This document shows, in pieces, positions 20,310 through 42,718 of a stretch of 64,000 nucleotides of DNA. How positions within the stretch are numbered: the first letter of the stretch is position 1; each line of letters starts with the position of its first letter. The notes beneath the pieces are model-generated. The model saw only the letters and a list, made by a program, of their open reading frames with translations, did no database searches and was not told the DNA's origin. The translations under genes and the position numbers were made by a program. Source of the stretch: Cymbidium sinense (lineage: Eukaryota; Streptophyta; Magnoliopsida; Asparagales; Orchidaceae); the NCBI GenBank assembly GCA_021442155.1, contig CM038221.1:25419906-25483905 (forward strand), written 5' to 3'.

Positions 20310-20390
20310 ACACCCATTAGGGTTGTGCCATCTGAGTGACATCTAGATCCTTCTTTTCAAGGGTAGGAGATCGTAAGGCACTACAAAGAG

Positions 20391-20542
20391 ATATATATAT
20401 ATATATATATATATATATATATATATATATATATATATATATATATATATATATATATATATATATATATATATATATATATATATATATATATATATAT
20501 ATATATATATATATATATATATATATATATATATATATATAT
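20391..20542. repeat. (AT)n microsatellite, about 76 repeats
   Basis: Uninterrupted AT dinucleotides inside a 5S spacer, with the expected 5S gene of that unit missing. It explains the isoleucine/tyrosine open frames on both strands. Confidence 0.98.
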
Positions 20543-20810
20543 GGCATCCAAAAGCACATCGCATGACATCCATCTATCAATGAGCTATATAGACTGAGGT
20601 CATAATGGTGAATTGGATGAATGAGCACAAAGTTATGGTTTTTTTTAAGTGCGACCTCATGTCTAGACCATGGTTTATCCTCACGAGGCTTATTGCTCAA
20701 GTTGTGCCATCTGAGTGGCACCTGAAGTCTACTTTTAAAGAGAAAATGATCATGAAGTACTGTAGTGAGATCAAAAATGCACAAAAAATAATGTGGTATC
20801 AAAAGAAAAT

Positions 20811-20926
20811 GGAGTGCAACATCAGGACTTTGAGCTTGCCCATCCCAGTACTACTCTCACCCAAGCACGCTTAACTATGAAATTCTAATGGGATCCAATA
20901 CATTATTGCTGGTAATAATCACATCC
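20811..20926 (-). pseudogene. 5S rRNA pseudogene, unit 1
   Basis: Nearly full length. The plus strand shows CCAAGCACGCTTAACTATGA (complement of box A) and GGATCCAATACATTATTGCT. The box C side is altered (CTTTGAGCTTGCCCATCC). Confidence 0.9.
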
Positions 20927-21282
20927 ATTATAGTTTAGCTATAAATTCTTCTTATGTAGATCTCATCTATGATCGATTACAATTTTGTCGGATCAGAGGC
21001 CCTCAAAATAATTAAATTTGATGATGTGTGGACAGCCAGATGTGTGGATGACACACATGTGTGTCATCCATCTCTTGATGATCTTTCTATAATGAGGTCA
21101 TATTGGTGAATCAAATGCATGAGTGCAAAGTTATGGTGCTTTCTATGTGACCTTATGTCGAGACCATGTTTTATTTTTGTGGGGCCTGCATCTTGGGACT
21201 TGTCACCCAAGTGATACCCAAAGTCTTCATTTCAAGGACAAGCAACCATGGAGCACCCACAAGTGAAAAAATAAATAAATAA

Positions 21283-21362
21283 ATAATAATAATAATAATA
21301 ATAATAATAATAATAATAATAATAATAATAATAATAATAATAATAATAATAATAATAATAAT
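21283..21362. repeat. (AAT)n microsatellite
   Basis: It has expanded exactly at the AAAAATAATGTGGC site of the 5S spacer that adjoins the 3' end of the gene in unit 2. Confidence 0.97.
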
Positions 21363-21380
21363 GTGCTTCCAAAAGAAAAT

Positions 21381-21500
21381 GGAGTGTAACATGAGGACTT
21401 CCTAGAAGGTCATCCATCTTTATATTACTCTTGCCTAAGCATGCTTAACTACAAAGTTTTGATGGGATCCGGTGCACTAATGCTAGTATGGTCACACACC
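21381..21500 (-). pseudogene. 5S rRNA pseudogene, unit 2
   Basis: Full length. It retains GATGGGATCCGGTGCACTAA, the well-conserved 5' domain of plant 5S, with many C-to-T type changes elsewhere (TATATTACTCTTGCC). Confidence 0.92.
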
Positions 21501-21867
21501 ATTATAGTTTGGCCATAAATTCTTCTTATATGGAGCTCACTTATGGTCGATCATAACATCATGTCAGATCTAAGGGCCTCAAAATGATTGATATTGATGA
21601 TTTGGGGCCCCGTCTAATGCGTATGCTTGTCATAAGTTTCTGGCGATTTCTAAATTAGGGTCATAATAACAAATCAAATACATGGGTGCAACATTGTGGT
21701 GCTTTCCATACAACCTCATGGCATAGCCATGGTTTATCTTTGTGAGGCTCGTAGCTTGGGTTTAGACATCTAAGTGGTACCCAAAGCTTACTTTTCAAGG
21801 TTAGTCTATCATGGAGCACTATAGTGTCATCAAAAGTGTACAAAAAATAATATGGCATCAAAAAAAT

Positions 21868-21982
21868 GGGTGCAACACAAGGACTTCCTAAGAGATCACC
21901 AATCCTAGTACTACTCTCTTCAAGCACACTTAACTATGGAGTTCTAATGGAATCCGCTACATTGGTGCCAGTATGGTTGCAC
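21868..21982 (-). pseudogene. 5S rRNA pseudogene, unit 3
   Basis: Full length with CCTAGTACTACTCTCTTCAA (a small deletion in GCCCAAGC) and GGAGTTCTAATGGAATCC. Confidence 0.9.
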
Positions 21983-22346
21983 TAGTTTTTGTTTGCCCAT
22001 AAATTCTTCTTATGTGGAGCTCATGGCCAAACCATGCGTCATTGGATTGTAAGGCCTTGAAATGACTAAATTTAATTAATTATGGCTCATTTCACATTTA
22101 TGTATCTTTTGTCTCTTGATAAGCTTTTTAGAATAGGTCATAATGGCTAATTGGATCTATGAGAATTAATTTATGGCGCTTTGTGGGAGGCCTCATGTCA
22201 CGGCTATGGCATGTAACTATGGGCATGCCACTCAAGTTGTGCCATTCGAGGTGCACTTGAAGCCTACCTCTCTAGTGCAAGCGATTGCAAAGCACTATAG
22301 TGAGTGTGAAAATGCATAAAAAAATAATGTGGTATCAAAATAAAAT

Positions 22347-22410
22347 GGGTTGCAACATAAAAAACTTCTAAAGAGGTCACTCATCTTAAATCTACTCACA
22401 CCTAAGCATG
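22347..22410 (-). pseudogene. 5S rRNA pseudogene, unit 4, 3' half (split by insertion)
   Basis: The 3' half of the gene is recognisable up to CACACCTAAGCATG, where unrelated sequence begins. The matching 5' half is at 27,066-27,119. Confidence 0.85.
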
Positions 22411-40650: not shown

Positions 40651-40706
40651 ATAATAATAATAATAATAATAATAATAATAATAATAATAATAATAATAAT
40701 AATAAT
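40651..40706. repeat. (AAT)n microsatellite
   Basis: A second, independent AAT expansion at the same spacer site as 21,283-21,362, just beside 5S unit 22. Confidence 0.97.
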
Positions 40707-40722
40707 GCGACATCGAAAAGAA

Positions 40723-40820
40723 TAGGGTGTAACATGAGGACTTCCTAGGAGATCACCCATCATAGTGTTACTCTCCTCCAAGTATGCTTAACTACAACCC
40801 TAATGCTAATATGATCATAG
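40723..40820 (-). pseudogene. 5S rRNA pseudogene, unit 22
   Basis: The 3' half is good (CTTCCTAGGAGATCACCCAT). About 20 bases are lost from the 5' half after GCTTAACTACAA. Confidence 0.85.
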
Positions 40821-41160
40821 TCATTATAGTTTGATTATAAATTCTTCTTATGTGGAGCTCATCTAGGGTTGATCTTGTTCAAAACATTTAAATTTGATGA
40901 TTTAGGGCCCACTAGATGCTCATACGGCATATATGCACGTCATCTGTCTCTTGATTAGCTTTCTAGAATGAGGTCATATTGGCAAATCAGATGCATGACA
41001 TGAAGTTATGGTGATTTCTATGCGGTCTTATTGCAGCAATGGTTTATCACCAAGGGTCATGTTGCTCATATAGTGCCTGTTTCTCTTAAGAAAATGATTG
41101 CAAAGCATTATAACGAGAGTGAAAATGCATAAAAAAATATTATGACATCGAAAAAAAAAT

Positions 41161-41278
41161 GAGGTGTAATACGAGGAATTACTAGGAGGTCACCCAACCT
41201 AGTACTAATCTTGGCCAAGCACGCTTAACTATGTGGTTCTAATGGGATATGATGCATTGGTGCTTGTATGATCGCACC
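41161..41278 (-). pseudogene. 5S rRNA pseudogene, unit 23
   Basis: Full length; AAGCACGCTTAACTATG and GCATTGGTGCTTGTATGATC are well kept. Confidence 0.92.
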
Positions 41279-41389
41279 TATTATAGTTTGGTCCAAAATT
41301 TTTTTATGTGGAGCTCATGAAGGGTCGATCCTGGTGTCATCGGATCATAAGGCCTTAAAATGGTAGACTTTAAGGATCAAGGTCCATTA

Positions 41390-41880
41390 GGTATGCTTAT
41401 GTCTCATTTACACATCATTCATTTCTCTCAAGCTTTCTAGGATGGAGTCATAAGGATGAATCAGATACATGAGCGTGAAGTTATGATGCTTTTTGTGAAG
41501 CCTCATGTTGTAGTGGTGGCATATCATCATGGGTCCCATCACTCGCATTGTGCCATCTGAGTGGCACCTTAAGCATGCCTCTCTCTAGAGAAAATGATCA
41601 GAAGCACTATAGGAAGAGTGACTTACTAAGGATCTATGGTCCGTTAGGTATGACTATAGCTCATCTACACACCATTCATCTCTCGGCAAGCTTTTCAGAA
41701 TGGGTCATAAGGATGAATTGATACAAGAGTGTGAAGTTATGACGCTTCTCGGGAAGCCTCAAGTTATAGTGGTGGCATATCATCGTGGGTCCCGCTTAGG
41801 TTGTGCCATTTGAGAGGCACCTTGAGCCTGCCTCTCTAGAGCAAGTGATCAGAAGCACTATAGTGAGAGTAAAATCATAT
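41390..41880. repeat. Spacer duplicated in tandem without a 5S gene
   Basis: The spacer segment 41,386-41,635 and the segment 41,636-41,880 are close copies of each other (GGTCCATTAGGTATG, GTGGTGGCATATCATC, GATCAGAAGCACTATAG). No 5S gene lies between them, so one unit has lost its gene. Confidence 0.8.
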
Positions 41881-41910
41881 AAAAATAATAATGTGGTATT
41901 AAAAAGAAAA

Positions 41911-42028
41911 TGAGGTGCAACATGAGGGCTTCCCCATATGTAACCCATTTTAGTACTACTCTCGCTAAACATGTTAAAATGTGAAGTTTTGATGGGATTC
42001 GGTACACTGGTAATGGTATGGTTGCACC
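41911..42028 (-). pseudogene. 5S rRNA pseudogene, unit 24
   Basis: Full length; TTTAGTACTACTCTCGCTAA and GATGGGATTCGGTACACTGG. Confidence 0.9.
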
Positions 42029-42399
42029 CGTTATAGTTTGGCTAAAATTTCTTCTTATTAGGAGCTAATCTAGGGCTGATCCCAACATCGTTGGATCATA
42101 GTGCCTCAAAATGTCAAAATTTGATGATCTGGGGCTCGCCTGATGCACCAACAGTGAATCTGCGTGTCATCTCGCTCGACAAGCTTTGTAGAATGTGGTC
42201 ACAATGATGAATCAAATGCATGGGCACAAGTTATGATGCTTTTTGTGCAATCTCATGTCATAGTCATGATTTATGATCGAGGGGCCTACCCACTTGGATT
42301 GTGCCATTCGAGTGGTACCCCGAGCTTGCCTCTCTAGAGTAGGTGATCACAATCTTTGTACAAATGCACAAAAAATAATGTGGCATGGAAAGGATAATG

Positions 42400-42514
42400 A
42401 AGCGCAACATGAGGATTTTGAGGAGGTCACCCATCCTAGTACTACCCTCGCCCAAACACAGTTTGCTGCAGAGTTTTGATGGAATCTAGCATACTAGTGC
42501 TGGTATGGTCACTT
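42400..42514 (-). pseudogene. 5S rRNA pseudogene, unit 25 (end of array)
   Basis: Near full length and comparatively well kept: GAGGTCACCCATCCTAGTAC, CTCGCCCAAACACA and CTGCAGAGTTTTGATGG. The array ends about 200 bp further right, within spacer. Confidence 0.92.
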
Positions 42515-42718
42515 TGTTATAATTTGGCCATAAATTCTTCTTATATGGAGCTCATTTAGAATTGATCTCGATGTTGTTGGATCGGATTGCCTTGAAATGA
42601 TGGAATTTGATAATCTGGGTCCATTATAGCACTTACGGCTCATCTAAGCATCTTATATCTCTAAACGAACATTCTAGAATGGGGTCATAATGGTGAATTG
42701 AATGCATAAGCATGAAAT

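Follow-up and report, generated by a model that had tools for sequence, protein, structure and literature searches.

A probable fossil of an abandoned 5S ribosomal RNA gene array in the orchid Cymbidium sinense

Cytogenetics has made it clear that sites of 5S ribosomal DNA (rDNA) appear and vanish between related plants, and a stretch of the Cymbidium sinense genome raises the question of what is left behind when such a site is lost. The stretch (C8:25419906-25483905, 64 kb of a 3.53-Gb genome; hereafter the window, with features numbered from its first letter) carries a tandem array of strongly diverged 5S genes and spacers, which a sequence-only reading had taken for an abandoned 5S locus at 20310..42718. 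In our analysis this array is best explained as the fossil of an abandoned 5S array, formerly uniform and derived from working genes, a reading to which we assign a probability of about 0.82; that total includes part of the case, weighed below, in which the DNA was already silent when it arrived.

The presence of the array and its coordinates were both borne out. With the Rfam model RF00001, the repeated blocks do score as 5S: 17 matches over the cut-off and one below it, all on the minus strand, lie at 20811-42516, and no match was found elsewhere in the 64-kb window up to an E value of 1. A unit profile (nhmmer) built from 10 full units recovered 33 pieces, equal to 24.2 units and 11,756 bp, and at E<=1 it had no match in any of 20 control windows generated with a first-order Markov chain. 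A gene profile found 25 gene pieces at 20314-42723 on the minus strand, representing 24 genes, one of them in two halves, so that the tandem arrangement described earlier stands while the count of some 26 units comes down to 24 genes. Most of them belong to a main block (33263-42723, minus strand) of near-continuous tandem units of about 487 bp, each a 5S gene plus spacer and several truncated, which holds 14 of the RF00001 matches over the cut-off and the one below. Consecutive gene matches in this block are spaced 348-507 bp apart, with two larger intervals of 751 and 895 bp. To its left lie a block of about four units (20314-22411, minus strand; RF00001 matches at 20811-20926, 21381-21499 and 21867-21984) and an island (27066-27528, minus strand) made up of the remainder of a unit split by an insert and most of the next unit. 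The top-scoring 5S gene of the window (21381-21499, minus strand) reaches 68.1 bits, far short of the 102.8 bits of the highest-scoring gene among the 47 scored genome-wide; the gene of the last unit (42399-42516, minus strand) scores 65.8 bits, and the array ends in the following spacer at 42723.

The locus proved larger than the sequence-only reading had it. When 264 kb of the chromosome around the window were joined and searched with the profile, array pieces extended over 118 kb (C8:25344741-25462628), interrupted by inserts. Blocks at C8:25344741-25344957, 25351594-25354571 and 25371865-25376076, which lie leftward, 64 to 95 kb from the first piece inside the window, add 14.8 unit equivalents and bring the locus to 39, with all 56 pieces on one strand. 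To the right of 25462628, as far as 25563900, there is no piece at E<=1e-3.

For comparison, the merged genome tables place 5S DNA at no fewer than 36 places, at least 17 of them with two or more matches; these are lower bounds, and only the best candidates were scored. Among the 47 scored genes, the best include those of arrays at C8:145.0, C7:181.6 and C11:84.5 Mb, whose units have about 60% G+C and a CpG observed/expected ratio of 1.2-1.4; the window units have 39% G+C and a ratio of 0.35. We use the label living-type for the GC-rich arrays L001, L002 and L004, of which L002 and L004 stand as single matches in the genome listing and turned out to be arrays on reading. L001, L002 and L004 each hold one nearly perfect 5S gene among gap-ridden units.

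How, then, are the units of the fossil related to each other? A tree was built from 52 units: 36 of the 56 pieces of the C8 locus (those spanning at least 301 model positions), three of five from L007 (at C7:186.1), seven from L028, three from L008 and one each from L001, L002 and L004, with none from L005; it was rooted at the midpoint for drawing only. The 36 C8 units form one clade (ultrafast bootstrap/SH-like approximate likelihood-ratio test 100/100), 10 units from C20 form another (100/100), and the six living-type and C7:186.1 units cluster together (100/98). Within the C8 clade, internal branches make up just 7.7% of the length and the mean tip is 0.229, above a stem of about 0.22. That every unit differs from the others, as had been noted from the letters, is reflected in a mean pairwise distance of 0.331 (standard deviation 0.025; 629 of 630 pairs, 36 units), which is far from the near-identity expected of a working array and close to that of a simulated star (0.322, standard deviation 0.0226). 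The sole clearly late duplication is that of two partial units at 41280-42028 on the minus strand (C8:25461185 and C8:25461534), which are 17% apart; the next closest C8 pair differs by 25%, and the mean is 33%. Given these near-star distances and a dependence on position that is weak, a largely uniform array lost its homogenisation at what was essentially a single time, some weak structure being older or regional.

The manner of decay was read from substitutions scored in 29 of the 40 gene pieces against the gene of L001, the best-scoring 5S gene of the genome. Transitions follow the context of the cytosine, with rates of 0.478 in CG, 0.377 in CHG and 0.188 in CHH, against 0.046 at A/T positions, and transversions amount to 0.03-0.07; part of the difference in CHG and CHH may have been fixed in the lineage of the reference. 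Against the plurality sequence of the fossil itself, CG and CHG are about level, followed by CHH and lastly by A/T (0.33-0.38, 0.35-0.36, 0.21-0.22 and 0.05-0.07). All 29 genes carry 22-35 substitutions in their 119 positions. The plurality gene differs from the reference at 13 positions, of which 12 are C-to-T or G-to-A, and since these are changes of the decay type, the ancestor appears to have been a normal 5S gene apart from decay. Assembly error was considered as a source of the differences between C8 units and rejected, because the changes track methylation context and gaps are few (0-14 gapped positions per gene, 23 of the 29 genes having 0-3).

No clear constraint remains on the gene or on its internal promoter, save for a slight excess of conservation at A/T positions of the gene and, before context is considered, in the control boxes. 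G/C positions undergo transitions at the same rate in the gene (0.239) and in the spacer (0.237). When the internal control boxes, at what we take to be their positions on the 5S gene, are compared with the rest of the gene in each context, transition rates are nearly equal (CG 0.33 and 0.38, CHG 0.36 and 0.35, CHH 0.22 and 0.21, A/T 0.05 and 0.07). The most plausible reading of this pattern is neutral decay of methylated DNA, the methylation being deduced from its mutational trace. The proposal of an abandoned locus thus draws support from the tree, from the mutation spectrum and from the lack of clear constraint.

The spacer further ties the array to the 5S genes of the species. Consensus units were derived from tiled units, with L008 represented by three units of a stretch with seven gene pieces and L005 by two. 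The window spacer matches that of C7:186.1 over 127 bp at 72% identity (E 4e-15) and that of C20:50.2 with E values of 3e-9 and 1e-9, and the C7:186.1 spacer in turn matches that of the living-type L002 over 384 bp at 75% (E 2e-61). Direct matches of the window spacer to living-type spacers are short (23 bp in L001, 22 bp in L004 and 13 bp in L002). The local alignment scores are reached by none of 500 shuffles for each of the six consensus spacers, from five loci, with a narrow margin for L002 (a score of 27, where the shuffles peaked at 26). The spacer is therefore related to those of the species' own 5S arrays; the sequence-only reading had named an unrelated spacer as what would speak against it, and the opposite was found. 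A block in the middle of the spacer, around CATTATGACCCCATTC, is common to the eight consensus units compared, with small changes, and has been kept while the rest of the spacer diverged between arrays. The CATTATGACCCCATTC block could possibly serve a function in the spacer.

All of these observations suggest the following course of events. A uniform 5S array descended from working 5S genes, and unequal exchange and gene conversion then ceased on it, as the near-star tree shows. From that time the units decayed largely singly. No clear selection held either the gene or its promoter, and most changes were C-to-T and G-to-A, graded from CG through CHG to CHH, as expected from deamination of 5-methylcytosine if the silent DNA was densely methylated. 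Insertions and deletions then scattered the roughly 40 surviving units over 118 kb. Up to the freeze the gene remained a normal 5S gene save for changes of the decay type, and along the stem it was the spacer that diverged, so the lineage was functional before that point. Activity at this very place before silencing seems the likeliest history. Substitution rates in grasses are 6.5e-9 to 1.3e-8 per site and year, and with these the tips of 0.23 would put the freeze at some 18 to 35 million years ago, which is an order of magnitude only because methylated sites mutate faster and perennials slower.

Several observations weigh against this interpretation. Distance does depend on position in the array, weakly and just significantly (Mantel rho 0.088, p 0.045), and immediate neighbours are slightly nearer to each other (0.319, counting in the single late duplication that is clear). 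The labels of the blocks cluster on the 52-unit tree beyond all 500 shuffles, with seven label changes for the main window block against 15.7 when shuffled and six against 10.9 for the left blocks, part of which merely mirrors the C8 clade, the shuffles having run over all 52 rows. A single unit copied many times in one burst would likewise leave a star. At A/T columns the gene changes less than the spacer (transitions 0.066 against 0.111, transversions 0.043 against 0.061), pairwise identity in the 16 units used for distances and spectrum (of 20 aligned) is 71% in the gene against 67% in the spacer, and with context ignored the control boxes are slightly better preserved than other gene positions (0.826 against 0.789). 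The slight edge of the gene may come from C/G sites that are now T/A in the consensus, from old variation in the spacer or from alignment noise, though it might also reflect some residual constraint. Finally, the living-type units are themselves far from uniform in the assembly, being 74-82% identical over ungapped columns, and their genes have on average 8.0-12.9 deleted bases and mostly 12-30 substitutions. In L001, L002 and L004 these differences are short gaps and substitutions of every kind, and because CG transitions are rare there (0.01-0.05), they presumably represent assembly noise in a living array.

The alternative that best survives is that the array was dead on arrival, a tandem stretch of 5S DNA having been copied to this place, for example via circular DNA, and having been silent throughout; it overlaps with the preferred explanation, and we consider it rather unlikely. 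A single burst suits the near-star tree, the many places at which 5S DNA occurs in this genome suggest that it often moves or is seeded, and an extrachromosomal spread of 5S blocks is discussed for pike in the accessible part of one report (PMC5437419). Against it stands the C8 stem of about 0.22, along which the spacer changed strongly and the gene acquired little beyond decay-type changes. It follows that selection acted on the lineage until the freeze, although this need not have happened at the present site.

Next, and very improbable, comes a satellite DNA derived from 5S sequence, amplified and kept as a satellite and not as genes. It would account for a tandem array of one monomer, and a 5S-derived satellite is known in Hoplias, according to a mention in the same pike article (PMC5437419). 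However, the copies are few, amounting to 39 unit equivalents at the locus. The recent amplification of a non-gene monomer that one would expect of a live satellite is not seen either, with one clear late duplication among 36 units. The plurality gene, moreover, is a complete 5S gene but for changes of the decay type.

That the units still do something, such as producing a variant 5S RNA or small RNAs, we find harder still to credit. It could draw on the slightly better preservation of the gene in A/T columns and of the control boxes before context is considered, and on the upstream GGCC and downstream T-runs, which the sequence-only reading had pointed out and which do survive in the unit consensus. 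Yet every one of the 29 near-complete genes is changed at 22 or more of its 119 positions, and within a given context the control boxes are preserved hardly better than other positions of the gene.

The least tenable view is that the units are copies of a dispersed retroelement carrying 5S sequence. Terminal-repeat retrotransposons in miniature (TRIMs) of the Cassandra type have a 5S-like stretch in the long terminal repeats (LTRs) that flank a short internal region and are dispersed, and SINE3-type short interspersed nuclear elements or 5S retropseudogenes occur as single copies with an A-rich tail and a target-site duplication. The genome does contain isolated 5S copies that have A-rich tails and direct repeats (L003 and L006); at the C8 locus, however, the units stand head to tail on one strand with one spacer that is related to those of other 5S arrays, the spacer motif CGATTCGCCATTATGACCCCATTC (with up to five substitutions) occurs five times in 264 kb, each time inside a unit, and neither a Cassandra-type nor a SINE3-type arrangement was found, the former with no LTR search around single units and a self-comparison that omitted matches within the array. 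This origin, which the sequence-only reading had itself raised as an objection, can be dismissed as next to impossible. Cassandra or SINE3 copies and chance similarity were both rejected as candidates on the tandem one-strand units, the related spacer and the profile controls. Of the single copies, those at 1501-1619 of L003 (C9:97.1 Mb) and 1501-1619 of L006 (C2:219.6 Mb) are well preserved and followed by A-rich tails, with flanking direct repeats that are imperfect in L003 and perfect over 18 bp in L006; they are probably 5S retropseudogenes, separate from the arrays.

Is the C8 locus alone in this genome? CG transitions rise from 0.02 in L005 (C7:125.5) to 0.21 in L007 (C7:186.1), 0.42 in C20 and 0.48 in C8, and A/T transitions from 0.00 to 0.01, 0.02 and 0.05 in the same order. 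These values come from three genes of L005, five of six of L007, 12 of 15 of C20 and 29 of C8, with four of six for L002 and five of six for L001 (the sixth being the reference); the last four gene positions were excluded, and the weakest or shortened genes of L002, L007 and C20 were omitted, which makes those arrays look slightly younger. The C7 and C20 arrays stand at earlier stages of the same decay, so whole 5S loci appear to have been lost repeatedly in this genome. An extension of this idea, for and against which we see about even odds, is that the genome is a graveyard in which whole 5S arrays were switched off in succession, each frozen at a fairly definite moment and then subject to a neutral clock of methylation decay, in the order living-type, C7, C20 and C8 locus.

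The inserts have left their own marks on the array. One of about 4.65 kb (22412-27065) interrupts a 5S gene between its positions 54 and 56; the unit stops at model position 57 (22410) and resumes at 27067-27117 (model positions 3-53), and the two halves of the gene lie at 22347-22411 (positions 56-119) and 27066-27115 (positions 5-54). It contains, at 24586-24846 on the minus strand, a degenerate fragment of a plant transposon protein that matches PF20167 (Transposase_32) with an E value of 5.6e-8 and 33.3 bits, under the 45-bit cut-off; Pfam searches of five other pieces returned no family. A second interruption of about 5.7 kb (27529-33262) is either an insert or an insert plus a deletion, with the unit phase left open from model position 49 to 123, and because the phase does not close, part of the array has probably been lost there. 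The inserts showed no clean target-site duplication at their borders. The earlier statement that retroelements had landed in the units is thus borne out only in part, by the insert that splits a gene and carries the weak fragment below the cut-off. Three long microsatellites, (AT)76 at 20391-20542, (AAT)27 at 21282-21362 and (AAT)19 at 40650-40706, lie at or beside one AT-rich spot of the spacer in three separate dead units: the first adjoins the spot in a unit that has also lost sequence there, the second is within it and the third is at the matching place of a different unit.

Elsewhere in the window, a gene for a pentatricopeptide-repeat protein related to At1g13630 lies at 61012-63559 on the plus strand, its closest relatives among the best 120 of 141 matches being in coconut (58% identity) and vanilla (56%), and an open frame at 56426-56800 on the plus strand with a BED zinc finger is possibly derived from a transposase. 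A repeated element of about 2-3.7 kb is present at 1800-5462, 16006-18502 and 47941-50494, its copy at 1800-5462 being an inverted repeat with arms 84% alike, and short degenerate tandem arrays lie at 78-845, 9713-10809 and 58747-59777, with periods of about 75-98, 370 and 308 bp.

The closest known parallel, so far as the accessible passages of the articles cited here go, is on chromosome 5BS of bread wheat, where about 70-80 5S copies form highly diverged short units that many transposable elements have broken up, with a more conserved array in a second region nearby; inactive copies are proposed to have undergone neutral destruction there (Sergeeva et al., 2017; PMC5688495). Diverged 5S units broken by transposable elements are common to both, but the wheat case is much younger and milder, with 2.8% divergence in the coding part and 8% in the spacer within the ShortA2 type and insertions dated to 2.7-4.0 million years (PMC5688495), compared with about 29% in the gene and 33% in the unit at the C8 locus. 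In addition, the C8 locus differs from 5BS in its near-star tree, its graded CG/CHG/CHH decay and the existence of other loci at other stages. For the amplified and methylated 5S rDNA of pike (Esox), the authors expect a build-up of C>T and G>A changes and of pseudogenes, and these changes, which are the dominant signal at the C8 locus, were not significantly enriched (PMC5437419). Non-functional 5S copies in a monocot are known from Pistia stratiotes, explained by birth and death, but there shortened variants are mixed with functional units, whereas C8 is a whole dead locus (PMC8928438). Pseudogenes of 35S rDNA in Cycas revoluta and an eroded, horizontally transferred grass rDNA array similarly combine rDNA decay with colonisation by transposable elements where homogenisation fails, although the Cycas case concerns 45S and not 5S genes and the type of the grass rDNA is unstated in the review passage, which lists deamination and failed homogenisation among the sources of rDNA variation and pseudogenes (cited in PMC10462631). 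A literature search gave no account of a 5S locus decayed this far, which is weak evidence as subscription journals lay mostly outside its coverage.

In summary, the fate of a lost 5S site is seldom seen in sequence, and here some 40 units keep their spacer, their family tree and a mutation spectrum ordered by context. Because the units began alike and then decayed largely independently, they form a natural replicate experiment for neutral mutation and for the life of silent chromatin, and possibly a dated marker of chromosome history. Caution is due with 5S-like matches in plant assemblies, which can include dead loci. If the genome is indeed a graveyard of successive arrays, a single genome would suffice to read in what order and when its 5S loci turned over, and for how long silencing persists after function is lost.

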